Origin: a virus
Direction: 5' to 3' (one strand)
Virus record (IMG/VR): IMGVR_UViG_3300017963_000517
Span: 1 to 35,537 of that record
Length of the DNA stretch: 35,537 bases
In this document: positions 3,985 to 29,534 of the stretch, piece after piece
Position numbering within the stretch: position 1 is the first letter of the stretch
Layout of the letters: every line of letters starts with the position of its first letter
Made by a program: the position numbers and the translations under genes
Notes under the pieces: model-generated
Databases searched by the model: none
What the model was told of the DNA's origin: nothing
The model's input: the letters and a program-made list of their open reading frames with translations, nothing else

Positions 3985-6255
3985 TTATTGCGTATCATAA
4001 TTTCCACTTACTCCAACACTTATACCGTCCGGAGATGGGTTTGTAGGTTGCGATCCGCTTTGTACCCAAAACTGAATATGTGCCGAAGAATCCTGTGTGT
4101 TACCTGCGGGATCTTGACAGCGAGAGTAAATATTATTCTCCCCTTCAGAAACGTCTATTGTCTTTGTATGTCCTGTTCCTGAACCGTCCATCGTATTAGC
4201 CATATCACCATAAGCCTTATCACTTGTGTCATATTTGCAGGTACAACTTTCATCTGTATTATGATAAATCTCTTTTGTAGTAGCATAAGACAAGTTTCCG
4301 TCAGGACCGAACGATTGAGAGGTTGGGGCTGTTGTATCAGCAACATAAGCTCCCATATCCCATTGGGTTTGATCTCGATCAATTAAAGTAAGGGTGAGGC
4401 CAGCTCCTGGCTTTCCGGTTCCTGCTTTCCATCCGTATCTTTCTGTCCCGTTTCCAACATCTACCCCGTCATTAATACCCGATGAGCCTACTTGTAGGGA
4501 GAAATCTTCATTTCCCTCATCTGCAAATGTAGCGGCGGTTTCATCAGTTCCGGTTACGCTGCTAAACTCGTCTGTAGCATTTATATCGTACTGAAACTCT
4601 CCTTCTTCATTACCTTCCATCTTGTTATACGCCCAATAAGTAGGTGTGTCTGTATCACGCCTACCACAGTTACCAGAAGGGCATTCAAAAATATTTTGTG
4701 CAATCACATTACCCGTACTGGCATCATTCCCCATTACCCGAATGGCGAGCATACCAGCCTCATTACCTGTAGCAATATTATTCTTTATCTCCGAGTTTTT
4801 ATGGTAGCCACAGAATCGGAAAGCAACTTCATCTCCATCTTCAATGTGGTTTCTCACTCCGTTTGTAACGGTATTGTTATAAATTTTTACATTTTCGTGG
4901 TAATCACTACCATCGGGCTTTGATGAAATGCAATGCCCTCTATCCTGTGTCGTGTTTGGAGGGGATAAATTCCAACCATTTATTACATTGCCATAAGCCT
5001 CATTGTAACCACCATCATTGAAGTAAATAGCGCCAGAACCTATGTTTTTAAAGTAATTAAACCTTACAATATTATAAGCCGTTTCTTCTTCTGGATTTCT
5101 CAACTCTCCACAACAGAATGTAACTGCTCTATCCATAATCTGTTCGTAAGTTCCCATCAAAGTTCTTTGGTCTGCCCAACCATGATTCTCAAAGTGATTA
5201 TACTCAACTGTCCAGTGATTTCCCCAAGAAGATACCATACCCCTATCACCAAATGACCCAAGTTGTGCTCCAATGTTTGTCATAGTACAGTTTTTGACGG
5301 TGTTATAGTCACTGTCATAGCCCGAAACTCCGTTTCTTGCCCATGAAATTGTTACGTTATCAACAGTATTATTATCTGAGTTATTATCAAGTCGAATAGC
5401 CGCAGCTACCGTGTTCCTGATAGTAAGATTTTGAATGGTATTATAGTTTGAGTCTTCAAGATCAATAGCTGCATAACCATCACCATTATAGTATGAGTGA
5501 TAGCCACTCCCCTCGTATGCAGCATCCCTTCCGCCTGGCCCATCCACATCAATCCCATCTATTGTGATATAATCTTTACCGTCAAGGTGAATACCCCTCA
5601 CTCTTACGCCAACGACACAAGTACCTGGCGCACCGTCGGACGAGTGAATGTACACCATATTCTCATCTTGAGGGAACCATGAATGTTCATCAAGCATATT
5701 ATCATCTAAATCTGATACAGAAGGATTTGAATTTGAGGATGCCGGACGATCATAATCACAATCGCAGAATGAATCCCCATACATATGCTTTGGTAATAGC
5801 ACCAATGGACTTCCACATGCGACACCCCAAGGATTCATGGTGGTAGTGGAAGCCTTGTATATATCATTATTCGTACCTGGATTATGCACTGTCCAGGCAC
5901 TTATTTCTTCACCCATACTAATCTTAGGACTTTCTCCAACTTCATGTGTAATGGTAATCACATTGCCTGATGTTCCCGATGAACCTACCGTCAAGGTTTC
6001 ATAGTAGGTTTCATCTTCGCAAAGATATAAAACATCGTTTGGACCTACTTTATTATCATCGGCATCATCGGTATCCCATTGGATAGCATCAAAACCATCC
6101 CAACAGTTGGCTTCGCTTGTGCCATCCTCTAAACCAGCACCATGACCGTCCCTGCAAACGTAATGAGTCTCGGTGTATGCCGCATATACGAGCATTACCG
6201 ATATAGCGACAGATAGAAGAAGCATTGTTGACGTATATATAAAGTGTTTTTTCAT
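3985..6255 (-). CDS. Secreted right-handed beta-helix protein (tailspike / pectate-lyase-like)
   Basis: A 756-residue protein. Residues 1-26 are a clear Sec signal peptide (MKKHFIYTST..., hydrophobic core LLLSVAISVMLVYA, then AYTETHY). From about 215 to 510 there are repeated short N-rich strands such as YNTIQNLTIRNT, NNTVDNVTISW and YNTVKNCTMTNIG, the hallmark of parallel beta-helix proteins (pectate-lyase and tailspike folds). The final region holds a beta-sandwich-like stretch with Cys pairs (DESCTCKYD, IYSRCQDPAGN). Such folds often bind or cut polysaccharide; no catalytic residues can be assigned by eye. It is coupled (ATGA) to the upstream secreted gene. The signal peptide is odd for a virion spike and could mean export to the host surface instead. 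Confidence 0.75.
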   Translation of the reverse strand: MKKHFIYTSTMLLLSVAISVMLVYAAYTETHYVCRDGHGAGLEDGTSEANCWDGFDAIQWDTDDADDNKVGPNDVLYLCEDETYYETLTVGSSGTSGNVITITHEVGESPKISMGEEISAWTVHNPGTNNDIYKASTTTMNPWGVACGSPLVLLPKHMYGDSFCDCDYDRPASSNSNPSVSDLDDNMLDEHSWFPQDENMVYIHSSDGAPGTCVVGVRVRGIHLDGKDYITIDGIDVDGPGGRDAAYEGSGYHSYYNGDGYAAIDLEDSNYNTIQNLTIRNTVAAAIRLDNNSDNNTVDNVTISWARNGVSGYDSDYNTVKNCTMTNIGAQLGSFGDRGMVSSWGNHWTVEYNHFENHGWADQRTLMGTYEQIMDRAVTFCCGELRNPEEETAYNIVRFNYFKNIGSGAIYFNDGGYNEAYGNVINGWNLSPPNTTQDRGHCISSKPDGSDYHENVKIYNNTVTNGVRNHIEDGDEVAFRFCGYHKNSEIKNNIATGNEAGMLAIRVMGNDASTGNVIAQNIFECPSGNCGRRDTDTPTYWAYNKMEGNEEGEFQYDINATDEFSSVTGTDETAATFADEGNEDFSLQVGSSGINDGVDVGNGTERYGWKAGTGKPGAGLTLTLIDRDQTQWDMGAYVADTTAPTSQSFGPDGNLSYATTKEIYHNTDESCTCKYDTSDKAYGDMANTMDGSGTGHTKTIDVSEGENNIYSRCQDPAGNTQDSSAHIQFWVQSGSQPTNPSPDGISVGVSGNYDTQ

Positions 6256-6845
6256 GGTGATTTCGTAAACAGAACGTATTTGTACGTCTTACTTGTCCCC
6301 TCATTATCCCACGACGACCCATCAGACGAGTAACTCTGGACTTCCACTGTTCCATTGGCGTCGTGCCAAGTGACGTAGTTACTCCCGTCAGTAGTGTCGG
6401 AATATAAGGAAACATGGTAGTAATTATTTAATGTTAAGCCACTTGACGGAGTGCTAAAAGTAAAGGCTGTTTCGACCTCACTCCCTCCAATACCGTTACA
6501 CTCAACGGCATCAGATGTGCCAAGTGCCGCACCTGTAGGCTTCGCAGGACTGCCCCCGTCATCAGCAAAAATAGCAATTTTGTACTCATGTGAACTTGAC
6601 CCCGTGAAATGGATGAAGGCATTAACCTGACAAACGCCTTCACTATTTGGACCTGTGTATTGAAACCGACTGGCCCTGTATTTATTATCGGCTGCTCTGG
6701 CAACAGCGGCGGGGGATGAAGATGCTCCTTCCTCTGATTGTTGTTCATCGCAAGTAGCGACAGAAGGGACTTTCATTACAATGTCTGCACTGGTAACAGA
6801 AGCAAAACATACAAGTAGTATAACAAATAAAAATCGTCTTATCAT
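6252..6845 (-). CDS. Secreted beta-sandwich protein (choice-of-anchor-like)
   Basis: A 197-residue product with signal peptide MIRRFLFVILLVCFASVTSA and cleavage before DIVMKV. The mature part alternates hydrophobic strands and contains KYRASRFQYTGPNSEGVC, IHFTGSSSHEYKIAIFADDG and NYYHVSLYSDTTDG. This resembles carbohydrate-binding or 'choice-of-anchor' jelly-roll domains of secreted proteins. It overlaps the genes on both sides by 4 bases, so it is made with the beta-helix protein. A role as surface adhesin or partner of that protein is inference. Confidence 0.6.
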   Translation of the reverse strand: MIRRFLFVILLVCFASVTSADIVMKVPSVATCDEQQSEEGASSSPAAVARAADNKYRASRFQYTGPNSEGVCQVNAFIHFTGSSSHEYKIAIFADDGGSPAKPTGAALGTSDAVECNGIGGSEVETAFTFSTPSSGLTLNNYYHVSLYSDTTDGSNYVTWHDANGTVEVQSYSSDGSSWDNEGTSKTYKYVLFTKSP

Positions 6846-8056
6846 ATCGCTGGCTCCTGAAATCCGAGAATCAAAATTAATCCTTTAGGATCGGTAGTAG
6901 GCGTTACCGCATCAATATCTACCCGAATAACATCGTTTTCAGCCACATCATCGTTGTTTGTGTCGATTACCGCTGCCGTGGCCGCCGTGTCTGAACCAGT
7001 CTCATCTTCATCTATGGTTAATTTCGTGGAAAGCATATCAGCGGTTTGGGTTAAGTTATAAATTTGGATATCTGATGTATCCGTCCCGGTTCCGGTTCCA
7101 GCGGTAATACATTCAGCATGAACATCCACAAGGTTCATCCCTGCTACTTTTTTGTCTATTTGAAAGTATGCTGCGCCATCACCTGTAGCCCAATCTGTTG
7201 TATATTCAACAACAATAATCTGCCGTGGTTCATAAGCCTTGATTATAGAAGCTGGAAATATCCACTTATCCAAATCTTCATCATATTTGGCAATCGTAGT
7301 CTTTGAACCGCCCTTATTGGCATAAATATAAACATCATTATTTTCTGAACCGTCTGCTCCGTCAACATATTGAGCACCAATGCTCACTGAATATTTATCT
7401 GAACCAGGGTTATTTATATCGTTTAAAATAACTTCAGGATTTTCAGTCGGAACTGAATACTTTGTCTTGTTTGCGAGATCGAAAGCAAAAACTGTACTCA
7501 ACTCGTATATATCTTGATTGGTCGTATGCGTGGCAGCCGTTGAACCTAAAACACCCCTGACAACCGTGATTGTCGTTCCATCGTCAATAGAACTCACTGA
7601 CATGAACTCACTTTCAATTAAAATTACTTCATTGGCAGTAAGTAGGCTGGAATCGTCAACGGTTATCGCAGTTTCAGAAGCGTCTAATTCTTCATCAGTT
7701 TGTGCTGTGGTATCGGTTTTATATTTCAAGGCATAACGAGCGTCCGATGAATCGTAACCGACCCATATAGTTTGAGAAGTATTGACAAATGTGCCATCGT
7801 CGTCTTGAAATGTTTGAACTTCACTCCATATTTGGGCTGCGTCTGTGTGTGGTATCTCAGCAACTAATTGCACTGTAGTACCGGAGGCCTCAAAATCATC
7901 TGCCTCAAGGTCAACCATAGAGTGTTTGATTACATCTGCACCAAACGCCGCCGCTATGGTGTCGGCATCGGAAAGGGTGAGTGATTTTGGTTGTGGACAA
8001 AACCCAAGCGCTATAAGAGCTGAAATTAAAACTATTATAGGAATAAATCTCTTCAT
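6842..8056 (-). CDS. Secreted virion-like beta protein, 404 aa
   Basis: The N-terminus MKRFIPIIVLISALIALGFC is a signal peptide. The Cys at 20 is preceded by LGF, not a good lipobox, so a lipoprotein is uncertain. Residues about 120-185 (LDASETAITVDDSSL, VILIESEFMSVSSIDDG, VVRGVLGSTAATHT) match a small beta domain widespread in phage structural proteins. The C-terminal 130 residues (IIVVEYTTDWATGDGAAYFQID, IRVDIDAV, GLILILGF) look like a jelly roll used in phage decoration or fibre proteins. Virion-type domains behind a signal peptide are unusual. It may coat cells or join particles outside the cytoplasm. Confidence 0.6.
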   Translation of the reverse strand: MKRFIPIIVLISALIALGFCPQPKSLTLSDADTIAAAFGADVIKHSMVDLEADDFEASGTTVQLVAEIPHTDAAQIWSEVQTFQDDDGTFVNTSQTIWVGYDSSDARYALKYKTDTTAQTDEELDASETAITVDDSSLLTANEVILIESEFMSVSSIDDGTTITVVRGVLGSTAATHTTNQDIYELSTVFAFDLANKTKYSVPTENPEVILNDINNPGSDKYSVSIGAQYVDGADGSENNDVYIYANKGGSKTTIAKYDEDLDKWIFPASIIKAYEPRQIIVVEYTTDWATGDGAAYFQIDKKVAGMNLVDVHAECITAGTGTGTDTSDIQIYNLTQTADMLSTKLTIDEDETGSDTAATAAVIDTNNDDVAENDVIRVDIDAVTPTTDPKGLILILGFQEPAI

Positions 8057-8065
8057 AACAACCCC

Positions 8066-8551
8066 CTATTCACCCTCGATCCAGCAAAGAATTCCCAATG
8101 TCACTTGATCGCCGCTATCTCCAATGTCATTGAGAGTGAGCTTTAGCTGTTCCAATATTGGCGGATACTGATTATAGTCCTCGCTGAGATCGTTTCCCGG
8201 CGTGTCAGCATCTTTGGAAAAGGCATCGTTATCGTAAACATCCACCAAGGAGTTTGACCAGGTTACGTCAATCGTGGTATTTGGGATAACCCCGCCGGTC
8301 CCTGGGATTACATCCATAATCATCATTGTTGCACCCTGCATCTCATATTTAAGCTGTGGATCGAGGGTTGACAGTGCAAGCAAATCCGTAGCTGACAAAG
8401 CACTACCGTCTGACGTACAAACCACTTTCCAGTAAAGATAATGCGGCGTTCTCGCAACCCTGCTGACAGTGAGCGTCCATGAGGCCCATGAATAGCATGC
8501 ACAAAGCAAAAGAATAAACATCGTTAAAATTGCAATTTTAATACGTTTCAT
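8066..8551 (-). CDS. Secreted hypothetical protein, 161 aa
   Basis: The first 23 residues (MKRIKIAILTMFILLLCACYSWA) are a strong Sec signal peptide; the mature chain begins SWTLTVSRVAR. The remainder is beta-rich and acidic, with YLYWKVVCTSDGSALSATD near the start and LTLNDIGDSGDQVTLGILCW at the end; no known domain is recognised. It is the first of four consecutive secreted proteins downstream of the tail fibre, separated by 9 bases from the next. It is probably part of the same exported set. Confidence 0.55.
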   Translation of the reverse strand: MKRIKIAILTMFILLLCACYSWASWTLTVSRVARTPHYLYWKVVCTSDGSALSATDLLALSTLDPQLKYEMQGATMMIMDVIPGTGGVIPNTTIDVTWSNSLVDVYDNDAFSKDADTPGNDLSEDYNQYPPILEQLKLTLNDIGDSGDQVTLGILCWIEGE

Positions 8552-8552
8552 T

Positions 8553-8792: not shown

Positions 8793-8806
8793 CTGTCTCT
8801 CCCTTT

Positions 8807-9931
8807 TTAACAAATCAGTGCGCCTGAAAAGTATGTATTTGTATCTATGTCCGTTTGAGCAGTTCCGCCGGACTGATACACTTCAACTTTAGCCGTATCC
8901 GTGGCATCCATATCGGCCACAACAGCAATGGCCATGGAAAAATTTCCAACATCAGCAGAAAACTTAGTTGGATCGAGATAGGCTAAATAGCTTCTATTGC
9001 TGGTGTTAATACAAATGTAATAATAAGTCGCGGCTGAATCGAGATTTTTAAGCCGCATAGAAACACTCAAAAGATATTTACCATCCACAGGAGCGGTAAA
9101 TATATTTGATGCAAAGTTACTCCCAACGTCAAAAACTTCCGTTCCAAACACCACTTCAACAGCACTATCTTTTGCAAAATTTTGCTGTTCCGCCGCCGGA
9201 TAAGCCAGAAAACTTGGCTGGCCGGTATTTACCATTTCGCCATCGTCGGTAACGGTAATAGTGGAACATTTTTGCACTTTTCTTGCGCCGCCATCTCCCC
9301 GGACAAGGGTATTGTCTGTGATAACCGCATCGGCCTCAATAAAGTTTGTCAAACCCAAAGTGGCTAACATGGCAGCCGCATCAGTATCATCGAGCAGGGT
9401 TTCGGCAAATGAACTTATCACGCCAGCATAGGCAGATAGATCAAAGACGTTTTCAAGCCCATCCAAACTTACATTCCAGCCAAGTACGCCCCCTGCAGAA
9501 GGAAGCGGAAGGGTCGGATCAATGCTCGAAGATATAGAATCAGGAAATGCCAACACTCTTGATAGAGAACCTTTAAGATCCTGAATCGCCATTGTTAATT
9601 TATCAAGTGAATTCTCAAAGGTTTCATAAAGAGTGGCCATGCCTTCAATGAAATTCGATGCCTGGGTGTGTGGGATGGCTCTTAAAATCGTGAGAGTATA
9701 TCCAGAAGCATAGGTTTCCACGGTTGTCACGGTGCCGCCGTCTGAGTAATCGTCATTAGTGGCGGAAACAGAGTAATCGGTTGTTTCTGTCAATGTCGTA
9801 TCGTTATCGTCTGAATCCGTGAGGATAATCGTCAAATCCGAAGTTTCATTGATTGGAAACGTAAAGTCGAATTCTGTTAAAGAACCGTTGCAATTATGTT
9901 GAACTCTTCCTGTTGAGGCTGAGATTGTCAT
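8807..9931 (-). CDS. Tail fibre with T7-type N-terminal domain and C1q-like tip
   Basis: A 374-residue protein. Residues 1-130 follow the T7 fibre attachment pattern: GRVQHNCNGSLTEFDFTFPI, a TDYSVS block, LTILRAIPHTQ and then ENSLDKLTMAIQDLKGSLSR. The middle is a short linker with a predicted helical stretch. The last ~135 residues fit a C1q/TNF-like jelly roll: VVFGTEVFDVGSNF, FTAPVDGKYLLSVSM and a final FSGALI. It should attach at the tail and bind a host receptor, probably as a trimer. It follows the internal virion genes directly, 12 bases after the 1037-residue protein, as in T7-like tail modules. Confidence 0.78.
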   Translation of the reverse strand: MTISASTGRVQHNCNGSLTEFDFTFPINETSDLTIILTDSDDNDTTLTETTDYSVSATNDDYSDGGTVTTVETYASGYTLTILRAIPHTQASNFIEGMATLYETFENSLDKLTMAIQDLKGSLSRVLAFPDSISSSIDPTLPLPSAGGVLGWNVSLDGLENVFDLSAYAGVISSFAETLLDDTDAAAMLATLGLTNFIEADAVITDNTLVRGDGGARKVQKCSTITVTDDGEMVNTGQPSFLAYPAAEQQNFAKDSAVEVVFGTEVFDVGSNFASNIFTAPVDGKYLLSVSMRLKNLDSAATYYYICINTSNRSYLAYLDPTKFSADVGNFSMAIAVVADMDATDTAKVEVYQSGGTAQTDIDTNTYFSGALIC

Positions 9932-9943
9932 TGTTTCTTCCTT

Positions 9944-13057: not shown

Positions 13058-13071
13058 ATCCCACCGTTTTT

Positions 13072-14613: not shown

Positions 14614-15077
14614 TATCTTATTCTTATACTTCCAGGTAACTGTTTGGTTTTATAAAATGAATATGCCGACAGTCCCGTACTTCCTAATCCCGTTAAAAGT
14701 GTACTCCTTGATTGATATTTTGCGGTTTTTTTAGCCTGTCTTCCTTGGAATCTATACAAATCGGCTGTTTCCTGCGCCCCGGTTCGAATATTTAAAGCCT
14801 CTTTTTCACCTTCTGCGGCCGTATCCGCAAGAACCGTCAATGGACTTCCGGAAGACAGATCAACACCGGCCTTTGCATACAAAGCCCTTTGAGTTCCAAG
14901 AAGTTGCTTTAATTTTTTCCTTGCTATTTCCTCTTCTTGAATTCCCTTTCTTTCGGCTAATCGAGCATTATATTCAGCAGCCGCAGCCTCGGCCTCTCCA
15001 GCTTGTCTCTGCTGCATTGCCGATTGAATCGTGCCAAAAGCCTGAACAGCTAATAATACATAAGGAAGCGCACTCAT
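14613..15077 (-). CDS. Internal virion protein (T7 gp14-like)
   Basis: The 154-residue product has a hydrophobic N-terminus (LPYVLLAVQAFGTIQSAM), a long Ala/Glu-rich helix (EAEAAAAEYNARLAERKG) and the block LLGTQRALYAKAGVDLSSGSPL. The same layout is seen in gp14-type internal virion proteins of podoviruses. A second hydrophobic stretch (TLLTGLGSTGLSAYSF) lies near the C-terminus. In infection such proteins leave the capsid and help form the DNA channel through the host envelope. It is coupled by TAATG to both neighbours. Confidence 0.72.
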   Translation of the reverse strand: MSALPYVLLAVQAFGTIQSAMQQRQAGEAEAAAAEYNARLAERKGIQEEEIARKKLKQLLGTQRALYAKAGVDLSSGSPLTVLADTAAEGEKEALNIRTGAQETADLYRFQGRQAKKTAKYQSRSTLLTGLGSTGLSAYSFYKTKQLPGSIRIR

Positions 15078-18803: not shown

Positions 18804-18814
18804 GTTATTTAAGT

Positions 18815-20284: not shown

Positions 20285-20381
20285 GGGCAACAAAAAAGGG
20301 GCAAACAGATTGAGTGGGTGAGCACTCACCTGCTGCCCCTTAGTTTTTTTGCTGTCCTCTACTGGCCGGTAGAGTTAGCCC
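20285..20381 (-). promoter_or_regulatory. Structured RNA leader E1 before the capsid gene
   Basis: Read on the - strand it fills the scaffold-capsid gap. In order: block GGGCTAACT; hairpin CTAC/GTAG; block AGGACAGCAA; stem AGGGGCA/TGCCCCT enclosing hairpin GGTGAG-TG-CTCACC; six U; block GTTGCCC, which can pair back with GGACAGCAA over 8 of 9 positions. An alternative pairing TGAGTG/CACTCA competes with the inner hairpin. The same blocks and architecture recur at 23560-23663 with different stem sequences that still pair. GC stem plus U-run looks like an attenuator or terminator, and no promoter separates it from the capsid start. It may also be a processing or stability element. Confidence 0.65.
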
Positions 20382-20387
20382 GAATTG

Positions 20388-21107
20388 TTATGGTTTCGGA
20401 GACTTGTCATACATCATTCCGGTTTTGCCTTCTTTTTGTTTCAAAGGCGTGCCGGGCGGAGTGGTATCATCCCCCATGGCCTTACCAATTTCAAAAAATG
20501 CTCTGATAAGGACAGGATGATTTCCCAGTCCGGTTTCATCAAGGAATGCGTCAAACTCAGCCCCCGAAAATTTTTGAAATGCACGTTTTGTGATTTCAAG
20601 GTTTTCGTCGTAATCAGCCCCCCAATCGGTTTTAAGCTTTTCATCAGCTTCGGTCTTTGAACTTTCCGCTTTTCTATTGATCTCTTCATTCAAGCCCTGA
20701 ATAAAACCGTCCCAGGCTTGAGAAATCAAAGTGGCTTGATCTTTTGATAGGTTTGCCTTGTGGAAGGTGTCTCTCGCCCAATTAGTCATAGCCTCATCGT
20801 GCTCGACACCCTCTCCTTTTGGAAATTCGTAATCCTCCGCCTTTTCTGGAACGCCTAAAGCTTTAAAGAATGCTGATTTTTCCTCCGGTGTGGATTGCTC
20901 AGTCAACTTGGGGATATAATCCTTGGTGATACTTTCCTCAAAGGTTGTAACTTTCCCCTGAAGTTCATTCACCCTCCCATCAAGCTCACTGGCCTTCCCC
21001 ACAGTGTCGAGATGTGCTTTTGCAAAATCTCCAATAGTCTCGAATGAGGTAAAAGCTTCGTTCTCTTTCAGGTCGTCCGGTAACTGTGCCATCCATTCAC
21101 CCGCCAT
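20388..21107 (-). CDS. Head scaffolding protein
   Basis: A 239-residue acidic helical protein directly upstream of the capsid gene. Its N-terminus WMAQLPDDLKENEAFTSFETI plus GDFAKAHLDTVGKASELDGRV is the usual start of phage scaffolding proteins of this kind. A predicted coiled coil (ELQGKVTTFEESI) and the block PEKAEDYEFP near 95 are also typical. The C-terminus is charged (PLKQKEGKTGMMYDKSPKP), as for capsid-binding scaffold tails. The ribosome site AGGAG is strong. No protease motif seen. Confidence 0.75.
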   Translation of the reverse strand: MAGEWMAQLPDDLKENEAFTSFETIGDFAKAHLDTVGKASELDGRVNELQGKVTTFEESITKDYIPKLTEQSTPEEKSAFFKALGVPEKAEDYEFPKGEGVEHDEAMTNWARDTFHKANLSKDQATLISQAWDGFIQGLNEEINRKAESSKTEADEKLKTDWGADYDENLEITKRAFQKFSGAEFDAFLDETGLGNHPVLIRAFFEIGKAMGDDTTPPGTPLKQKEGKTGMMYDKSPKP

Positions 21108-21121
21108 AATCTATACTCCTT

Positions 21122-21352
21122 TCACTCTTTTGGTGAGTTTTTATATTCCATCTTGGCATTAGCTATGCGCTGCATAGCCTCTGCTTTGGCCTTTTGATCT
21201 TCAGCTATTTTCTTAGCAACTTCTTGTGCCATCTTAAATCTTTCTGGGTCCGCCTTTATGACTTCTGCCTCTGTAAGAGTGTGTGCATCATTTTCAGCCA
21301 TCCACTCTTTTTCTTCCTCTGTTTTATCCGGCATTGCTACTGTGTCTGTCAT
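21122..21352 (-). CDS. Small helical hypothetical protein, 76 aa
   Basis: Starts in the ATGA overlap with the 49-residue gene. The product is acidic at the start (MTDTVAMPDKTEEEKEW) and then one long charged helix rich in Lys/Ala (MAQEVAKKIAEDQKAKAEAMQRI). It is encoded immediately before the scaffold gene and could be a head-assembly accessory. No family recognised. Confidence 0.55.
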   Translation of the reverse strand: MTDTVAMPDKTEEEKEWMAENDAHTLTEAEVIKADPERFKMAQEVAKKIAEDQKAKAEAMQRIANAKMEYKNSPKE

Positions 21353-21498
21353 TGTTTCTTCCTTTTTCTTTTACGCAATTCAGCCCCCTTGACCTTTCCC
21401 GCATTAATAGAGGCATAAAAAACTTCTTCGCCCTTTTCTTTGCCGAAATGCCTTTTCATTTCAGTAAGTACGGTTTTTCCTTTTTTAGTCAGTGGCAT
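21349..21498 (-). CDS. Small basic phage protein, 49 aa
   Basis: A short gene from ATG 21498 to TGA 21351-21349, coupled to the next gene by ATGA, behind a GAGAGGGAT ribosome site. The product MPLTKKGKTVLTEMKRHFG..., then KGEEVFYASINAGKVKGAE and a very basic tail LRKRKRKKQ, matches a small protein often found in head modules of many phages (MPLTKKGKKI...YGxKKGExVFYAS). Its function is not known to me; the basic tail suggests nucleic acid contact. Confidence 0.7.
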   Translation of the reverse strand: MPLTKKGKTVLTEMKRHFGKEKGEEVFYASINAGKVKGAELRKRKRKKQ

Positions 21499-21500
21499 TT

Positions 21501-21734
21501 TTAATCCCTCTCTATGTGCTCCATATCTCCCGATTTACTTGAGCCTAAAAGCACTTTTTTTAAATCGACCTTGCCATCCTCATATACTTTCAGCCTATAC
21601 TCAACTGTAAGCGGAGGATGTTTTTTAATAGATGTCTGGATTTTGTCCGATACTAACGCGAACATTATAAATCCGAACAAAACGCCAAGCATTCCAACTA
21701 AAAACAATGCATTAATCTGCGACTTCTCTGACAC
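21501..21734 (-). CDS. Small single-pass membrane protein, 77 aa
   Basis: GTG start at 21734 with GGAGGT 8 bases before it, overlapping the O-antigen-ligase-like gene by 23 bases. One membrane helix at about residues 9-27 (ALFLVGMLGVLFGFIMFAL) is followed by a short soluble domain with TVEYRLKVYEDGKVDLKKV. The coupling to the preceding envelope gene suggests a shared role in the inner membrane. No family recognised. Confidence 0.55.
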   Translation of the reverse strand: MSEKSQINALFLVGMLGVLFGFIMFALVSDKIQTSIKKHPPLTVEYRLKVYEDGKVDLKKVLLGSSKSGDMEHIERD

Positions 21735-22815
21735 GAAGCTGTACCTCCAAAATTGCCAGCCATAAAATGATAAGCATTCCGTTTATTGCGTTCATTCTAA
21801 AAGCTGAATTGGCGATACACACGCCGATTACAGCACCGAGAGATGAAAGCGAAATTATACAATGTCTGGGAATTTTAAAATCTCTGATTGTTAATTCTCT
21901 CGCTCTTAAAATCACACTTATTAAAAAATTTACAGTTATGAAAATCGAAACAATTCCCATTTCGATATAGTTTTGAATAAAAGTATTGTGTAGCCTTATA
22001 ATTCCTTTAAAAATAGGCTTTACTTTTATTACGTCTTGATAAATCTCGGTCCATCTGCCAAGACCGATACCCAAAAGGTAAGTTTTATGATGAACTGATA
22101 ACTTTACAGCCTCGGTCCATATATTTAAGCGCCTACTGATATCCGGGGCATCTATAAAAAGCGTATAAAATATAAGACCTGAAAATATTAATACAGGCGG
22201 CCAAAATTTATACCCGTTCAGCCCTGCATAGATTATAAACGCAAGACATAGCCCGACAACACCCCCAAAAGACTTGCTTAATATTAATCCGACAACAGGG
22301 ATCAATATAAAAAAAAGCCAGCCTTTCCGAAAAAACGCCGGAGCGCAAAGAGCCATAAGTGCACTTGATTCATTAGGGTTTGCGGTTAAGCCCGTTGGAA
22401 ACCTCCATTTCACAATAAAAGCCTCGAAAAACAGGATGTATAAATGAAGCATGGCAACAATACATAAGGCATCAAATATGCGTTCACAGTTCTGGCATTT
22501 TAAAACGATAACAGAATAAAACAGGCAGCCCACTGTTATGTTTATCAACACCAAATGAGATTGCATGGTGTTTAATTTACCGGTATATAAAAATGCCGGC
22601 AGAGAATGAGAAATTAACGCCAGCAATAAAAACACTGCTACCCATTTGTTCACGTTCTCATATAAAAAGATCGCAAAAACGAGTAGGGATGCACAAACAA
22701 CCATGAACTCAAAAAGAGCCCTCATGTTCTTTGCAGGAAAATGGATAAATGCAATCATTAAAACGATAGAAGCAATTACCCATTGCCATTTATTGTTTCG
22801 CTGTGTAAACTCCAT
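21712..22815 (-). CDS. O-antigen ligase/polymerase-like membrane protein (Wzy_C family)
   Basis: A ~367-residue polytopic membrane protein with about ten hydrophobic segments. It shows Wzy_C/WaaL signatures: PTGLTANPNESSALMAL near 140-156, LSKSFGGVVGL near 179-189, an Arg/Trp pair in RRLNIWTEA near 228-236, GIGLGRW at 249-255 and LHNTFIQNYIEMGI at 275-288, whose His matches the catalytic-type His of the periplasmic loop. Such proteins join O-antigen or related glycans in the periplasm. Temperate phages can carry polymerase homologues for seroconversion. Its location between portal and scaffold, overlapping both neighbouring genes, is very unusual. Which glycan it uses is unknown. Confidence 0.78.
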   Translation of the reverse strand: MEFTQRNNKWQWVIASIVLMIAFIHFPAKNMRALFEFMVVCASLLVFAIFLYENVNKWVAVFLLLALISHSLPAFLYTGKLNTMQSHLVLINITVGCLFYSVIVLKCQNCERIFDALCIVAMLHLYILFFEAFIVKWRFPTGLTANPNESSALMALCAPAFFRKGWLFFILIPVVGLILSKSFGGVVGLCLAFIIYAGLNGYKFWPPVLIFSGLIFYTLFIDAPDISRRLNIWTEAVKLSVHHKTYLLGIGLGRWTEIYQDVIKVKPIFKGIIRLHNTFIQNYIEMGIVSIFITVNFLISVILRARELTIRDFKIPRHCIISLSSLGAVIGVCIANSAFRMNAINGMLIILWLAILEVQLRVREVAD

Positions 22816-23539
22816 CAAAACCCTTCAACTCTAAATTGGCCGTTGCGTGAGTTGTGGCATTAAACACTTCGATGGTATAAAAATGCCCCGCTGTCATTGC
22901 GGCAATTCCTGTGGCATCCAAGGTCAAAGTCAGGACATCGCATTTGACATCAAGGGATGCCTCGGTTGATGTAACTGTGCTCTGGCCTATCTCAGCGGCA
23001 TCAAACGCTGTGCCATCGGCATTGTCCCAAAGCATCCAATCCAGTTTTGTGCTTGTACCGTCAGCGGTATTAGACGAAATCAGGGCATAAAAAACCAGCG
23101 CCGTATCAGCAACATAGTCCGGTGGCAGCCTAAAGGTTTTTTGAATGCCCGCGGTTTCTCCCGAGTTGTCCCAGATAATAGCCGGGATATTATCAGCAGT
23201 TCCCATCTCCGGCGCTGAAGCATCGTCAATGTCGTCGGCTGAATCAACTACCCAGCCGGCCAAGCCTCCGCCGATACCAGGAAGTGGCCTTGTCACATTG
23301 GCAATTTCACCGGCCCCCACTTTTTCAGCCGGAAGTATGACATCAGTGTTGACGGTCAACGTATTAATGTTTGCGGTATTCCACGGAGCATCCGAATTAC
23401 CCAAACATCCGACACTGGGACGATCCGGATTTTCGCATCTGCCTACGGTCCCTCCGCAACCGTACCCAGACGCATAAGCCATGCCAGCAGTCATTAAAAC
23501 GATCAAAATTGCCACTAAAACTTTCTTAAAAATCTTCAT
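22790..23539 (-). CDS. Secreted jelly-roll-like protein, 249 aa
   Basis: The ATG at 23539 has a GGAGGAAAGGA ribosome site and opens a signal peptide (MKIFKKVLVAILIVLMTAGMAYA, mature SGYGCGG). The first mature segment has three Cys (GYGCGGTVGRCENP, VGCLGN). The rest looks like a beta sandwich: IIWDNSGETAGIQKTFRLPP, YVADTALVFYALISSN, KLDWMLWD. Similar beta domains occur in phage head fibres and decorations. It is located in the head cluster, is preceded by RNA element E2 and overlaps the O-antigen-ligase-like gene. Either an exported surface protein or a virion decoration added outside the cytoplasm. Confidence 0.62.
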   Translation of the reverse strand: MKIFKKVLVAILIVLMTAGMAYASGYGCGGTVGRCENPDRPSVGCLGNSDAPWNTANINTLTVNTDVILPAEKVGAGEIANVTRPLPGIGGGLAGWVVDSADDIDDASAPEMGTADNIPAIIWDNSGETAGIQKTFRLPPDYVADTALVFYALISSNTADGTSTKLDWMLWDNADGTAFDAAEIGQSTVTSTEASLDVKCDVLTLTLDATGIAAMTAGHFYTIEVFNATTHATANLELKGFDGVYTAKQ

Positions 23540-23559
23540 TTTCCTTTCCTCCGGTTTCC

Positions 23560-23663
23560 GGGCAACAAAAAAAGGAGCGAAGTGTAAGCCGATAAATCGG
23601 GTGTGAGCCTCACACTTGCTCCTTAAATTGCTGTCCTTTGGGGAGCTACCCCTCAGTAAGCCC
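23560..23663 (-). promoter_or_regulatory. Structured RNA leader E2 before a secreted head-cluster gene
   Basis: Second copy of the element before the capsid gene. On the - strand: GGGCTTACT; hairpin GGGG-TAGCT-CCCC; AGGACAGCAA; stem AAGGAGC/GCTCCTT extended by AAGTGT/ACACTT; inner hairpin GTGTGA-GGC-TCACAC or CCGAT/ATCGG; seven U; GTTGCCC. The flanking blocks are nearly identical to E1 while the stems differ but keep pairing, as expected for a selected RNA fold. AAGTGT can pair either with the outer ACACTT or, shifted, within the inner hairpin, so two mutually exclusive folds exist. It ends 10 bases before the ribosome site of the 249-residue gene. Confidence 0.65.
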
Positions 23664-23673
23664 AAGTTTTATT

Positions 23674-23943
23674 TTATTCTAAACCCTTCTTTAAAAGATC
23701 TTCTTCTTCCTGTTCTTTCCCTTTTGAAGACACTCCCGCAAGCGATTGAACAACCTCCAAAAGAGTATCTTCGGCAAAAATACCGCATTTATGTAAAATT
23801 GCTGTTCCCACGTTGTTTTCGGATACCTGGACCTTGTTATCAGGGTCAAGCATACATCCAAAATGACACGTGGTTAAAATATCAGCCAACACCTCAAGGC
23901 CGATGGGAGAATTTAAAAAAACTGTTCGGTATTTATCTTTCAC
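23674..23943 (-). CDS. Bbp19-like small head protein, 89 aa
   Basis: GTG start overlapping the portal stop as GTGA. The chain YRTVFLNSPIGLEVLADILTTCHFG resembles the Bbp19-type phage domain (F...G..VL.dL), and the end is acidic/lysine-rich (GKEQEEEDLLKKG). In BPP-1-type phages a gene of this kind lies between portal and capsid cluster. Its function is unknown. The match is by motif and gene order. Confidence 0.6.
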   Translation of the reverse strand: MKDKYRTVFLNSPIGLEVLADILTTCHFGCMLDPDNKVQVSENNVGTAILHKCGIFAEDTLLEVVQSLAGVSSKGKEQEEEDLLKKGLE

Positions 23944-25655
23944 TCTTCTTTATATCCCATCATTTCACCGAGCGGGCTATCAGGGGAAACCTCTTTTCCA
24001 GCAGCCGGGGCCGATCTTGCGGCTTTTTCCGCGATAGCAATTTCCTCCATTAACTCTTGTTTTTGTTGTCTCAACTGTCTAATCTTTTTAATCTTATTCG
24101 GTGAATTCATGGCCTTCTGTGGAAATCCCCTGGAAATCAGAAGTTCTTTGCCAGCCTCATCAGGATTGATAAGATCAAGAATTTCTGGAAATATCTCGGA
24201 TATCCCGCCAATTGCATCAAGCCCCTGAGTAATACCCTGAGACTTAAAAAGTTTTTTCTGAGCCTGTGCCAGCGGTCCTAAATATTCGGTTTCGATATCG
24301 CCCCCGGCAAGATCAAGTAGAATGTCCGGCGGTCTTGGAATTCTTTTTGCTCTATACTCAATGTGAAACACTTTGTCATGTGCAGGATTTAAGAACTCTG
24401 TTTCAAACTTTCCTATTCTTAATCCTAAGATCGCGGCTTTTTCTCCGCCCATCTCGATAACCTGGGTTGCTGTAAGCTCCACTTTCTGAGCAACAGCTTG
24501 TGACAGCATAAGAAAGAAGTCCACATGAAAATGATCCTTGATCGCGTCTCGATATCTGTCCTGCATCTCTATCCCATACGGAAGTTGAATACCGGTAACA
24601 AGCGGTTTTGGAGCTCGGTCCATGGTTTTAACCCATGTCCAGCCTTTAGGTCCGATATTGACTTGCCCTCTCAAATCTGAAGTGCCGACCATTGGAGGCT
24701 CAACCATTTTGTGTCCGGCTATTAAATTCGTCCTTCCGGCCTGATTTGCTGTCATTACATCAATAAATGCATCCCAGGCAGGAGATCGACCATACCACTC
24801 ATCATTATTTTTTCGCCAGCGCCAGGTTAAAAATGCACTGTCATCAAATCCGGATTCAAGTAAAAGTTTATTTCCCGGCTTTAAAACCCAGATAGAAGCA
24901 TAAGGTTTATTTTTCTTGTTCAGTTTTTGAACATCATAATCTTCTCTGGGATAACACGCATGAACAACCTCCATTTCCTGATGCATGTTTTTGTCGTACT
25001 TGTCTTTAAAATTCGTATCTGCCTCTTTCATGGTTTCAAATCCGAATTTTTCTTTTAACTGTTTCAGGGTAAGTTTATAGTCTCGATAATGGGTGTCCAC
25101 TTCGCCAAAATAATTCTCAGCAACATAGCACTCTCTGAAATGCGGGACCCTGAAAATAACGCGAGAATTTTTAATGTCCTCTTCAATGTTTACGGTAACG
25201 GTTCCGACAGTCACGGCATCCCTTACGATCTCGGGGGCTATGTCGTATAAATTAGAGGCCATCAGTGCCGAATACATAGCCTCTTCAGCGTCTTCAAGCC
25301 ATGCCTTGATCTCGGGTATGGAATCAACTCTTTTACCGCTCCATTGCCTCATCCCCGAATATCTGGGAAATACCATTCTCTGAGGTAGGGTATAGGCAAA
25401 CCACCTGAAAGACTTTGAAATCGTGTATCCGGTAAAACCATCGGTCAGAAGATTCGCAGCGCCCAGGGCAGTACCATCATATACTTGAGTGCCCGTTTTT
25501 TGGCCTTTCGCCTGAGTACCGTCCTTAACCTTTCTTCTGCCATGATAAATATAAGTCAGAATATCATCAATCATGCCCTCAAACGGACGGCGGATTTCCT
25601 GAAGCACCTTTAGAGTGTTGTTGATGTCTTTTACTTTGTCTTCGTCTGACCTCAT
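23940..25655 (-). CDS. Portal protein (head-tail connector type)
   Basis: A 571-residue protein of the podovirus head-to-tail connector family (PF12236-like). Indicators are the N-terminal RRPFEGMIDDILTYIYHGRR, YDGTALGAANLLTDGFTGY near 70-88, LTWRWRKNNDEWYGRSPAWDA near 273-293, and MTANQAGRTNLIAGHKMVEPP near 299-319. Length agrees with portals of epsilon15-like phages. Twelve copies should form the ring through which DNA enters. The C-terminus has a coiled coil (LRQQKQELMEEIAIAEKAARS). It follows the large terminase after one 71-residue gene. Confidence 0.83.
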   Translation of the reverse strand: MRSDEDKVKDINNTLKVLQEIRRPFEGMIDDILTYIYHGRRKVKDGTQAKGQKTGTQVYDGTALGAANLLTDGFTGYTISKSFRWFAYTLPQRMVFPRYSGMRQWSGKRVDSIPEIKAWLEDAEEAMYSALMASNLYDIAPEIVRDAVTVGTVTVNIEEDIKNSRVIFRVPHFRECYVAENYFGEVDTHYRDYKLTLKQLKEKFGFETMKEADTNFKDKYDKNMHQEMEVVHACYPREDYDVQKLNKKNKPYASIWVLKPGNKLLLESGFDDSAFLTWRWRKNNDEWYGRSPAWDAFIDVMTANQAGRTNLIAGHKMVEPPMVGTSDLRGQVNIGPKGWTWVKTMDRAPKPLVTGIQLPYGIEMQDRYRDAIKDHFHVDFFLMLSQAVAQKVELTATQVIEMGGEKAAILGLRIGKFETEFLNPAHDKVFHIEYRAKRIPRPPDILLDLAGGDIETEYLGPLAQAQKKLFKSQGITQGLDAIGGISEIFPEILDLINPDEAGKELLISRGFPQKAMNSPNKIKKIRQLRQQKQELMEEIAIAEKAARSAPAAGKEVSPDSPLGEMMGYKEE

Positions 25656-25658
25656 GGT

Positions 25659-25874
25659 TTAACCCAAAATCGTTTTGTAAACATTCGGGCTTGTCATAAC
25701 GCCCCCGGGACCGGTCAAAATCGTGGAAGCCCGACCCCTTCTTTTCCTCAAAGCATCGGCCTCTCTTGCAGCTGCCTCCTTAACCTCTTCCGAATCGTCC
25801 GTTACAGGTTCCGACTCTGGCATTACTTTTGTCGGGCTTTTCGGTTTTCTAAATAAATTCGTAAAAGCAGACAT
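25659..25874 (-). CDS. Small conserved phage protein before portal, 71 aa
   Basis: Coded between terminase and portal. The product is Pro/Glu-rich and disordered at first (KPKSPTKVMPESEPVTDD), then has KEAAAREADALRKRRGRASTILTGPGGV and ends KTILG. The block RRGRASTILTG...K(T)xLG recurs in small proteins at this spot in many podoviruses. Function unknown, perhaps packaging or head related. AATGGAGG is the ribosome site. Confidence 0.65.
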   Translation of the reverse strand: MSAFTNLFRKPKSPTKVMPESEPVTDDSEEVKEAAAREADALRKRRGRASTILTGPGGVMTSPNVYKTILG

Positions 25875-27404
25875 CTAAGCCTCCATTCCATATTTTAAAG
25901 GATCGTATGAACCGTCCTCTTCTTTGTTCATACCAAACTTCATAGGGTCATAAGGATTGCCCGGGATAAGAATCTTCTGTTGCATAATTTCTATCGGCAT
26001 TTGTATGGCAATGTCTATACCTGATCTTACATAATATCTTGTGCAATCCATCAAATGATCGTTTTCCTTGACTACCTTGCCGTTTTTATCCCTGCGATAT
26101 AACCTGAATTCCTCAAACCATGGAGCGCAAGACCTGAAAACTTTTAATTTTCCGGTTGAAAGAGCGACAAAAACATCAAATATACCAGCCTCCCTTGCGT
26201 TATCAGCAGGAGAAAGCTCTAAACCAAGATCAACGTATTCGTCCATTAGTTTTTCGCCGTCTCTCTGACTTGAAGCCCTCGCCCCTGGATCTGCAACCCC
26301 TGGTATCCATTTCCCCCTTGATTTTATGGCCTGAACATGAACCGGTGGCTCAGACAGGCCTTTTTTATAGACAGAATATATATAAGATGTGCCGGTATCC
26401 CGGTCTGTAGCCCCCCACGCTGCGGCTGTGCAGTTCCAGCCCACATCAAAACCATACGCCCTTGACCAATATGGAGGTATTGGAAAATCATCAATCACAA
26501 TATAATCTTCAAGAAGCGGATATATAGCCCCCGACCCCAACTGAGGTATGCCTTTAGATCTTGCATCCCTTTGGTGCGGAGGCAAACTGGCCCATCGTTC
26601 CTTCTTTTCTTTTTCCGAAAGATGAGGCGCATCATCCCAAGTCGCTTGAATTACAAATCTCATAACCTGATCATGCGGTCCTGGAAGTTTTCCATCGGGC
26701 ATGAACTTCTTGACAACCTCGGACACCCCCTGCAGAGGGGTAAAAGTCAACATAATCATACCGCCAGTTGTCATAATGCGGATCAGGCATTCATTATAAA
26801 CATCGTCCGGAGGCTCCTCATCCAGCAAGATCACATCCTGCTCAACACCTTCAAATGCCTTCCTGCCCTGCTCGTATGACTTAAAACCTAAGACAGAAAC
26901 CCCACCGGTAACATGCTGGATAAAAACTGTTTCTATGGCATCAGGAATCCCCCCAGCCTTGCGCTTATAATCCAAAATACAATCATGGGGAATCAAACCC
27001 GTACCAATATCAGAAATCGGTCCCAATAATTTGTGTTGCAGAATATCTCTTGTGGTCTGATTCGTGGTGCCTGAAGCCCAGGCCTTTATTGGACCGGTAA
27101 ATCTATACCCTTCCCACCAATCAGGATAAATGCCCGTTAAATGACAGGTCAGCTCATAACCCCCCATTCCTTCGGTTTTCCCAATCCGATTCGCAGCCAT
27201 GGCGCCGCGCTCACGAAATTTCTTACCCGCTCGAAAAAATTCCATGTGTTTCGGATAATTATGCCGCGACAACGGACCTGTCTCTGGATAAAAAGATTCT
27301 ATCTTCTTATGCTCATATCGCCGTACGCGCTCTTTTAAACGAATATATAAGAGTTCTTTTTCCCTGCGGCTTAATTTTGACAGGTCTGGCTTTGCTTCCA
27401 GCAT
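25875..27404 (-). CDS. terL: Terminase large subunit
   Basis: DNA-packaging motor ATPase and nuclease of 509 residues. The ATPase part has a Walker-A-like AANRIGKTEG at 70-79 (GKT at 75-77), Walker B VILLDEEPP at 191-199, and the coupling motif TFTPLQG at 220-226. The nuclease part has its first acidic residue at D320 in YGFDVGWNCTAAAW and another likely in WIPGVADPGARAS near 372-384. It docks on the portal encoded two genes downstream and works with the small subunit encoded at about 31.3 kb. It overlaps the sigma-factor gene by 34 bases, an unusual coupling. Confidence 0.88.
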   Translation of the reverse strand: MLEAKPDLSKLSRREKELLYIRLKERVRRYEHKKIESFYPETGPLSRHNYPKHMEFFRAGKKFRERGAMAANRIGKTEGMGGYELTCHLTGIYPDWWEGYRFTGPIKAWASGTTNQTTRDILQHKLLGPISDIGTGLIPHDCILDYKRKAGGIPDAIETVFIQHVTGGVSVLGFKSYEQGRKAFEGVEQDVILLDEEPPDDVYNECLIRIMTTGGMIMLTFTPLQGVSEVVKKFMPDGKLPGPHDQVMRFVIQATWDDAPHLSEKEKKERWASLPPHQRDARSKGIPQLGSGAIYPLLEDYIVIDDFPIPPYWSRAYGFDVGWNCTAAAWGATDRDTGTSYIYSVYKKGLSEPPVHVQAIKSRGKWIPGVADPGARASSQRDGEKLMDEYVDLGLELSPADNAREAGIFDVFVALSTGKLKVFRSCAPWFEEFRLYRRDKNGKVVKENDHLMDCTRYYVRSGIDIAIQMPIEIMQQKILIPGNPYDPMKFGMNKEEDGSYDPLKYGMEA

Positions 27405-27964
27405 TTTTTAAACGCCTTTCTAACCTTTCTCGATACCGAAAGAATTATCTGAGATACTCGAGTATAAGAAATTCCCTTCATGTCGCCAATCTCGCGCAAA
27501 GTATAACCATCCCAGAAATACAGCTTTAATATCTCAATAGTATCTTCTCGGCATTTTAAAGTGTTTATATGTGCAAAGATTTTTTGAACCAAATCCTTAT
27601 TACAAACCTTGCCTTCAGTGCCATTCACAGAATAGGCCAATGAATTTTCAAAAGAATTAAAGTTTTCGGGGTTCGAAAAATTCACTTTTAATAAAGCTGC
27701 TTTATCAGTACAATTCCTCGGCGTTCCAGAAACCATTCTGAGATGGTCCAGAACACCCCCGCGAATCTTTATTCCAGCAAACGTCCCAATAGTAGCCCCC
27801 ATGGATTCATCATAATTATCAATCGCCCTTATCAAAGATTCAACAGCAGCAGATTCACAATCGTTGCGAGTCCAAGAATCGTTTATATTTCTATTCGTAC
27901 ATATCTTCCCGGCAATAGACTTCGCAAAAGATGTATAATTCAAAACTGTTTCGTTTCTATTCAT
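27371..27964 (-). CDS. Phage-encoded sigma-70-family factor
   Basis: A 197-residue protein with sigma region 2 at about 8-80 (AAVESLIRAIDNYDESMGATIGT, then FAGIKIRGGVLDHLRMVSG, close to the FliA/WhiG pattern of KIRGxxLDxLR) and region 4 at about 124-187 (ILKLYFWDGYTLREIGDMKG, YTRVSQIILSVSRKVRKAF, a helix-turn-helix). Region 3 appears short. It should direct host RNA polymerase to chosen phage promoters, probably late ones. It sits inside the packaging operon and its 3' end overlaps the terminase gene. Which promoters it uses is not evident. Confidence 0.78.
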   Translation of the reverse strand: MNRNETVLNYTSFAKSIAGKICTNRNINDSWTRNDCESAAVESLIRAIDNYDESMGATIGTFAGIKIRGGVLDHLRMVSGTPRNCTDKAALLKVNFSNPENFNSFENSLAYSVNGTEGKVCNKDLVQKIFAHINTLKCREDTIEILKLYFWDGYTLREIGDMKGISYTRVSQIILSVSRKVRKAFKKCWKQSQTCQN

Positions 27965-28300
27965 CTACCTAAAGCTATAATAACTTAAAGTGCCGGCCAA
28001 CCTGCTACCAACAACTATCTCACCGCTGCCAAGGTTTGAAACCTCAACATAAAGGCCGGTATTGTTAAATCGCGCAAACTGAAGCACAATTCCGTTGAGG
28101 CCCAAAGCAATCGCATCATACGTCTGAGAAGGAATAACCCTTGCTGTTGCGGTCTTGCTATCATCAGCCTCATTGTAACACGCAACAGTTGGGTTGTTTG
28201 TGCCATCCGACCCTATAATAATATCCATTAAAAAATTAGGCCCGCTATGGATAAGCGTGCTCTCGGTTATCCTTGTTGGAATTACGAATATATTGTCCAT
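27965..28300 (-). CDS. Hypothetical beta-rich protein, 111 aa
   Basis: Likely start ATG 28300 behind AAAGGGG; an earlier in-frame start lacks a site. The sequence is beta-rich, with ITESTLIHSGPNFLMDIIIG, NPTVACYNEADDSK and GLYVEVSNLGSGEIVVGSR. The pattern resembles small head or trimer proteins that occur between adhesin and packaging genes; a firm family cannot be assigned. It lies just after the DUF1566 protein gene and its stop touches the sigma gene start. Confidence 0.55.
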   Translation of the reverse strand: MDNIFVIPTRITESTLIHSGPNFLMDIIIGSDGTNNPTVACYNEADDSKTATARVIPSQTYDAIALGLNGIVLQFARFNNTGLYVEVSNLGSGEIVVGSRLAGTLSYYSFR

Positions 28301-28335
28301 TTTATACCCCTTTATCACTCAAATGCCCGAATAAC

Positions 28336-29208
28336 CTATCCTCGGACGAACCGCACATAATACTTGCGCGTCTGCTTATTGCGGTTGTACACGAGCCCAT
28401 TGCCGAAGTACACGTTGAACGCGTAGGCGCTATTGCACGGATGCGTAGACGCGGTCCAATGATAGACATTGGGTGTTGACGGAAATGCGGTGGTGTCGAT
28501 GGCCGGGTTGCAGTTGCCCAGGTTGATAAGTTTTGTCAATTCAAAATAATTAGGAATCCGCCAGTCCGTGTATCCGCCCAGGGAATTGGTGTTGGCCTGG
28601 TCCAGGGCATCCCAGATCAGGTCGTCTACCGTGGCGATGGTGACCGTGTCGCCGGCCGCCTCGTCGGTCAGCGCCTCCACCGTTACCAGGTTGTTGGCCG
28701 TGATGGATGAAACCGTGTACGTACCGTCATTGTCGTCCGTGCCCGTGACCGTGAATTTGCGCCCGGCGCATAAGGCATCCGTGTCGAAATCCCCGGCAAC
28801 CGAGTTGATGGTTTTGGTACCGGCCGTGAAGCTGATATCCGTCTTTTCGGATAGAGTCCACTGCTCCCAAAACAGCTTGCCGGCCGTTGCCGGTCCGATG
28901 TCCGCCGTGGGCACGTACCGCGCCCACATGAGCCCGGTGCGGGCGTCCCGCACGCAGTTGTTGCTCAGGGCATGGGTCTTGCCGTTGATGGTGATATTCG
29001 TGGTGCCGCTGTACTGCCCGGTGCTGTAGATTACATACCTTCTCGGCAGCCCTTTCTCTAAATCACCGTCGTCACCTGTGGTATAGCTTGTCGTTTGTCC
29101 GGTTTTTAGGGGGTGTGACGTTTTCCCTGAGGGCCGCAAGATACCAGCATAGGCAACCGTCACAATTAAAAAAATTGAAATAAATATTATAGATAGTCGC
29201 TTTTTCAT
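28336..29208 (-). CDS. Secreted DUF1566 (Lcl C-terminal, C-type-lectin-fold) adhesin-like protein
   Basis: A 290-residue product with signal peptide MKKRLSIIFISIFLIVTVAYA. The DUF1566/PF07603 pattern is split: DARTGLMWARYV near 88-99 and then DLIWDALDQANTNSLGGYTDWRIPNYFEL near 195-223, HWTAST near 248 and a final YYVRFVRG. Between them (about 128-190) is an inserted small beta domain (FTVTGTDDNDGTYTVSSI) widespread in phages. The C-terminal FNVYFGNGLVYNRNKQTRK is where DUF1566 proteins diversified by retroelements vary, but no template repeat or reverse transcriptase is seen. Large parts are distinctly GC-richer than the neighbours, so acquisition or exchange is likely. Coupled ATGA to the upstream secreted gene. 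Confidence 0.75.
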   Translation of the reverse strand: MKKRLSIIFISIFLIVTVAYAGILRPSGKTSHPLKTGQTTSYTTGDDGDLEKGLPRRYVIYSTGQYSGTTNITINGKTHALSNNCVRDARTGLMWARYVPTADIGPATAGKLFWEQWTLSEKTDISFTAGTKTINSVAGDFDTDALCAGRKFTVTGTDDNDGTYTVSSITANNLVTVEALTDEAAGDTVTIATVDDLIWDALDQANTNSLGGYTDWRIPNYFELTKLINLGNCNPAIDTTAFPSTPNVYHWTASTHPCNSAYAFNVYFGNGLVYNRNKQTRKYYVRFVRG

Positions 29209-29534
29209 TTAACCGCCTTTTGCTCTATAACAACCGGAGGCCTGTTGTCTGTATAGTGATTAATATTCCTTTCCGATTTTAAAACATTTTTTGAGTCATA
29301 CACTTTTTGATTTATTTTTTTAATTTCCCCGGCGGGATAATACTCATGGGTTTCAACACGTTTACTCACTTGCTTTCCTTCTTCGTTCTTTACAATCTCA
29401 GACCAAACCTTGATACGACCATTCAGACCTTTTTGAACACTTATAATTGAGTCGTTTTCCCAGACACAATTCCACTCAGCGCTTAAAGAAAGCGGACATA
29501 AAACAAAAATCAAAATTAGTATTACTTTTTTCAT
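29205..29534 (-). CDS. Small secreted protein, 109 aa
   Basis: ATG 29534 begins a signal peptide MKKVILILIFVLCPLSLSA, with the mature chain starting EWNCVW. The rest is charged with a GRIKVWSEIVKNEEGKQVSKRV segment and EYYPAGEIKKINQKVYDSKNV, beta-hairpin-like. It overlaps genes on both sides by 4 bases and is therefore co-translated with the DUF1566 protein and with the coiled-coil membrane protein. No family recognised; a periplasmic chaperone or anchor for the DUF1566 protein is a guess. Confidence 0.55.
   Translation of the reverse strand: MKKVILILIFVLCPLSLSAEWNCVWENDSIISVQKGLNGRIKVWSEIVKNEEGKQVSKRVETHEYYPAGEIKKINQKVYDSKNVLKSERNINHYTDNRPPVVIEQKAVK

Follow-up and report, generated by a model that had tools for sequence, protein, structure and literature searches.

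Predicted export of adhesin-like proteins and a candidate glycan ligase cassette encoded in the late operons of an uncultured podovirus

What could seven proteins with predicted signal peptides do for a phage that encodes them in the same operons as its virion genes? The window (the whole stretch of DNA analysed here) is a linear contig of 35.5 kb from an uncultured podovirus and comprises genes for an integrase, DnaB, TerS, TerL, portal, a scaffold-position protein, capsid, tail proteins and internal virion proteins. Two further contigs (G001 and G002) represent the same phage with an identity >99% where compared. The seven signal-peptide genes are located on the minus strand and share late operons and orientation with the TerS, TerL, portal, scaffold and tail genes, and several of them overlap their neighbours by 4 nt. 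From this arrangement and from the predicted features of the proteins it appears most likely that these proteins leave the cytoplasm at a late stage of infection and have their role at the host envelope. Among the other genes, a phage-encoded sigma-70 family factor (regions 2 and 4; 27371-27964) overlaps the start of TerL, a GNAT acetyltransferase-like gene (15077-15550; match slightly under the curated cut-off) is found amid the genes for tail and internal virion proteins, and a DUF5131 gene with a weak radical SAM match (91-762, plus strand) adjoins the integrase. A terminator scan gave no excess if compared with shuffles.

The sequence-only reading had proposed seven Sec signal peptides, and all seven N-termini were found on the minus strand, at 29534 (MKKVILILIFVLCPLSLSA), 29208 (MKKRLSIIFISIFLIVTVAYA), 23539 (MKIFKKVLVAILIVLMTAGMAYA), 8551 (MKRIKIAILTMFILLLCACYSWA), 8056 (MKRFIPIIVLISALIALG), 6845 (MIRRFLFVILLVCFASVTSA) and 6255 (MKKHFIYTSTMLLLSVAISVMLVYA). 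Signal peptides were called in 7/7 by a purpose-written rule-based scorer of n-, h- and c-regions that looks for a basic n-region, a hydrophobic h-region, small residues at -3/-1 and a soluble mature part with no transmembrane segment. All seven products show these features of Sec substrates, the one at 8056 (w6842) being weak at the c-region. The scorer recognized 11/11 textbook signal peptides and five out of five exported E. coli proteins but none of 66 other E. coli proteins, and it called 33 of 8,600 shuffled versions of the N-terminal 60 residues of window proteins; no signal peptide was called in the remaining window genes. The base rate in 78 loci picked by terminase similarity amounts to 16 calls in 1,030 ORFs (~0.6 per 35.5 kb), compared with 6 of 38 ORFs in the window when the same automatic ORF caller is used (7 counting the internal start at 29534), which corresponds to P of about 3e-5 to 4e-5. 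The products at 29534 and 23539 begin with ATG codons internal to longer ORFs, and the cleavage site of the 8551 product was placed by homology to its counterpart in contig L086. With these controls the signal peptides of the seven products are predicted to be genuine. Sequences cleaved by a prohead protease (PMC10367356) were set aside as an explanation since the products are not capsid proteins.

The accompanying claim that members of this set carry virion-type domains holds for the products at 29208 (Lcl_C), 8056 (fibre-tip domain) and 6255 (beta-helix) and, by a moderate fold match, at 23539 (jelly roll), but no domain was identified in those at 29534, 8551 and 6845. Of these last three, w29205 (29205..29534, minus strand) is a predicted exported protein of 109 aa with a signal peptide reaching to residue 19. 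In its homologues from L104 and L117 no signal peptide was called, and none was seen in the G014 homologue, where the start codon was left out of the comparison. The predicted exported w8066 (8066..8551, minus strand; 161 aa) has a homologue in L086/L087 with 46% identity in which the signal peptide is kept and C45 and C156 are conserved. The third one, w6252 (6252..6845, minus strand; 197 aa), is also predicted to be exported and shows no family match. The gene w6842 (6842..8056, minus strand) combines a signal peptide of weak cleavage site with fibre domains. Its middle part matches a tail-fibre family, and its C-terminal 120 residues are 57-61% identical to the ends of two proteins that both lack a signal peptide, one of 897 residues with a minor-tail match (L177), the other of 304 residues (L179). 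The largest member, w3985 (3985..6255, minus strand), consists of a signal peptide and a right-handed beta-helix (Pfam Beta_helix, 1.4e-9) with 17 Cys in the mature part; cysteine is commoner in the exported mature parts than in non-exported virion proteins, mostly due to this protein. Within its gene a stretch of 145 bp (window 4537-4681) differs from G001 at 19 sites, and since 16 of the 18 changed codons are synonymous and only 2 non-synonymous, it resembles a patch that was acquired by recombination and is subject to purifying selection. Tblastn against phage isolates gave no match for w8066, w22790, w21712, w28336, w6842 and w3985, and the tip domain of w6842 alone weakly matched two phage isolate records. 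An ordinary tail fibre outside the exported set is encoded by w8807 (8807..9931, minus strand; phrog_1640, 4.6e-28), with a T7-type N-terminus, a weak C1q match and no signal peptide.

The gene w28336 (28336..29208, minus strand) codes for a signal peptide followed by an Lcl_C (DUF1566) lectin-type domain (Pfam Lcl_C, 1.5e-24), and its composition is mosaic with a GC content of 39% across 29101-29208 and 57% across the rest. Relatives with 58-74% identity are found in L099-L104 and L117. Those in L099, L100, L102-L104 and L117 start without a signal peptide, and among the relatives compared only the window and L107 (G014) possess one. In L117, a contig of a WOR-3 MAG, the Lcl_C gene is followed by a homologue of w29205. 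As three of the families occur without a signal peptide in other phages, export is apparently an added feature.

A second peculiarity of w28336, missing from the sequence-only reading, is its putative retroelement-type hypervariation. The region 28386..28443 (minus strand) comprises 12 of 12 differences between the window and G001/G002 across 12.7 kb. These 12 sites fall into seven NNY codons and affect positions 1-2 only. As in known retroelement (DGR) targets with a C-type lectin fold (Lcl_C, Mtd), the variable codons are C-terminal and correspond to Asn codons of a template, six of the seven aligning with those in the template repeat of its relative L103. With its substitutions clustered in AAY-type codons, at their positions 1-2, and located at the 3' end of a gene for a lectin fold, w28336 thus bears the signature of a DGR target. 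Template repeat and reverse transcriptase were found neither in the window, whose genome is incomplete, nor in G001, G002 and most relatives, the exception being L103/G012. There, L103 9872-12497 is a complete-looking retroelement with an Lcl_C target devoid of a signal peptide, a template repeat ~650 bp downstream and a reverse transcriptase. According to a survey, phage DGR targets have no signal peptides (PMC6199706), and w28336 differs from those reported by its predicted signal peptide and by the lack of a template or reverse transcriptase in the sequences of this phage. A hypervariable exported phage lectin would, if true, be an exception to the published rule. Both G001 and G002 start exactly at window 28626 within the GC-rich body of this gene; perhaps repeated or variable sequence may halt assembly at this point.

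The product at 23539 belongs to a cassette whose second gene was absent from the sequence-only reading. Gene 1, w22790 (22790..23539, minus strand), codes for a signal peptide and a jelly roll resembling carbohydrate-binding modules (CBM), and gene 2, w21712 (21712..22818, minus strand), for a polytopic membrane protein related to the O-antigen ligase WaaL. The ORF of w21712 overlaps w22790 by 29 nt and its true start may be internal. It is followed by a small protein with one predicted transmembrane segment (21501..21734, minus strand); G011 and L137 encode a small membrane protein in a similar position, the likeness being positional. Besides the window the tandem occurs in G014, G011, L136, L137, L138/L139, L140, L146, L150/L155, L152/L156 and L153, i.e. 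in 11 contigs or groups of near-identical contigs and at least 10 distinct uncultured phage contigs, with the ligase frame interrupted in L153 and gene 1 cut by the contig end in L140. As called, the two ORFs overlap by 23-32 nt in the window, G014, G011, L136, L137, L138, L140, L152 and L153, abut in L146 and are 49 nt apart in L150. Only gene 1 is seen in L143 and L135, and the ligase gene occurs without its signal-peptide partner in L147 and L148. Most neighbours that can be read code for capsid, portal or scaffold-type proteins; the surroundings are less clear in L137 and L140, both of them short contigs. Two family members searched by tblastn yielded no match to the cassette among 50,697 phage records, and a profile of w22790, run in search of a host, detected none in ~1,235 genomes of four phyla; it finds 10 of 12 viral contigs because most of its rows come from those contigs.

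Signal peptides were called in all 11 complete proteins of the w22790 family (counting L143), which share 28-47% identity with the window protein; together with the w8066 pair this is as expected under selection. In the model of w22790 (mean pLDDT 75.8, with residues 25-75 unreliable) the chain folds as a jelly roll, which carbohydrate-binding modules and a Klebsiella tailspike match moderately, the TM by target reaching 0.59 at most. For the w21712 family both the Wzy_C profile and the WaaL fold place it in the WaaL/Wzy_C superfamily. Wzy_C matches were obtained in 11 of 12 members at E <= 0.05, the window member being under the curated cut-off, and a profile search of the family with the WaaL structure 7TPG gave E 5.1e-5. 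Alignment of the w21712 model with WaaL by VIA-align covers 303 residues with Z 19.9, and Foldseek returned no clear WaaL match among the top matches listed for this model. As candidates for the catalytic Arg and His of the Wzy_C region, R230 and H277 are invariant in the family and align by count with R265 and H313 of 7TPG, leaving a third Arg (R191) unmatched. On this sequence and model basis, the putative enzyme fits the roles of a ligase, a polymerase and an O-oligosaccharyltransferase alike.

Related arrangements are known from both phages and bacteria. Like the O-antigen ligase or polymerase genes of the phages D3 and VarioGold, w21712 encodes a Wzy_C-family membrane protein, and in VarioGold such a gene stands beside a signal-peptide gene in a moron cluster that runs opposite to the late genes (PMC9658991); in contrast, w21712 is found within a late operon adjoining head genes. 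Genes of O-oligosaccharyltransferases often adjoin those of their acceptors (PMC3643930), and PglL/PilO systems resemble the cassette in that a WaaL-family enzyme and an exported protein are encoded side by side and in one direction (PMC3643930). But their acceptors are pilins, and the PglL_A motif (PF15864) gave no Pfam match at E <= 0.05 in any of the 12 members of the w21712 family.

Sets of the same kind exist in other phages, and signal peptides on phage-type domains are present in further contigs. Of 271 ORFs in ten cassette contigs, 37 received a signal-peptide call. When the cassette genes are left aside, the count is 28 calls in 262 ORFs versus 16 in 1,030 in the comparison set, some calls resembling lipoproteins or membrane proteins and the two sets being picked differently (by cassette and by terminase), so that the enrichment may reflect host or lineage. 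In L137 a tail fibre has a signal peptide. In L086 the homologue of w8066 is followed by further products with signal peptides, one matching a tail collar fibre, another combining a beta-helix with polysaccharide deacetylase; no cassette was seen in the 8.8 kb of this contig examined. In G014 a head structural protein of phrog_399 (L110 1202-1918, minus strand) has a signal peptide and a plausible ribosome-binding site. A search of the open-access literature turned up no account of a whole set of fibre proteins bearing signal peptides, and the signal-peptide genes of Porphyromonas gingivalis phages are not described as fibre-type domains with a ligase cassette.

We retain, as predicted and well supported, the proposal that this phage encodes an adhesin-like exported set. 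In our main reading, to which we assign a probability of about 55%, the seven proteins leave the cytoplasm by the Sec route and function in the periplasm or on the surface of infected cells, where they would remodel the envelope before lysis. The predicted signal peptides would direct the products through Sec, and the mature parts would represent fibre, lectin-type or carbohydrate-binding modules, some of which are encoded elsewhere without a signal peptide (judged by comparison for three families and by domain matches for the others). The jelly-roll protein would be made in tandem with the WaaL-like protein, which, by sequence and fold, would transfer a lipid-linked glycan at the periplasmic side. 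The location in late operons suggests late expression, so by gene order the set would be made together with the virion genes. It could then cover or trim receptors and matrix, sparing progeny from loss on the old cell, and the ligase might attach glycan to the lipid A core or to its exported partner, while retroelement-type mutagenesis would keep the binding face of the Lcl_C protein changing. The mode of action may be masking of receptors, trimming or glycosylation of the surface, or joining of virions at lysis. A known case is Llp of phage T5, an exported envelope protein that blocks its receptor (PMC9586334). Both Llp and the present set are phage-coded and (here by prediction) targeted to the envelope, and Llp interferes with the receptor (PMC9586334). 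However, Llp is one small lipoprotein and superinfection exclusion proteins are described as early (PMC9586334), whereas here seven larger proteins are encoded in late operons and some consist of fibre-type domains.

The virion-type domains and the position of the genes inside head and tail clusters would also suit virion parts that, once exported, acquire disulphide bonds and perhaps glycan from the ligase, and that bind to particles when the inner membrane fails at lysis. The Cys excess in the mature parts and the neighbourhood of the CBM-like jelly roll gene with head genes are consistent with such a maturation in the periplasm, and in G014 the signal peptide of the phrog_399 head protein may point to a role in virions rather than at the envelope. 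Nevertheless, a conventional fibre (w8807) is present without a signal peptide and to our knowledge no tailed phage assembles in this way; hence we regard this explanation as unlikely. That some tailed phages export a portion of their fibre and decoration proteins through Sec, modify one of them by the ligase in the periplasm, diversify another by a retroelement and attach them to particles at lysis is a conjecture we hold to be quite improbable.

The integrase in the window could point to lysogenic conversion, in which the set is expressed from the prophage and alters the surface of the lysogen as do the O-antigen genes of phage D3, and temperate phages do carry O-antigen ligase-family genes, the one in VarioGold adjoining a signal-peptide gene (PMC9658991). 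An action during lysogeny, which had been suggested before, is nonetheless less likely, because the virion operons on the late strand contain all seven genes, of which several overlap their neighbours, unlike the separately oriented moron cluster of VarioGold (PMC9658991), and because promoter-like sites (scan for the sigma-70 consensus only) are not in excess over shuffles across 20300-30600; we consider this role rather doubtful. The hydrophobic N-termini might also be uncleaved membrane anchors or have another role, with most of the proteins remaining at the cytoplasmic side or at the inner membrane. For w6842 an uncleaved anchor is conceivable due to its weak cleavage site, but most of the N-termini end Ala-x-Ala-like, the mature parts are hydrophilic and signal peptides are kept in distant homologues, which makes this very unlikely.

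This podovirus and scattered, unrelated uncultured phages provide proteins made of tail-fibre and sugar-binding parts with predicted secretion signals and often pair one of them with a relative of O-antigen ligase. The preferred reading suggests that such phages use adhesins of their own, among them one that is kept hypervariable, to rebuild the envelope of the host cell when infection is well advanced. If this is true, phages shift adhesin modules between virion and host envelope by gain and loss of signal peptides, and the phage-borne glycan ligase cassette among head genes would offer a testable route for a late change of the cell surface.
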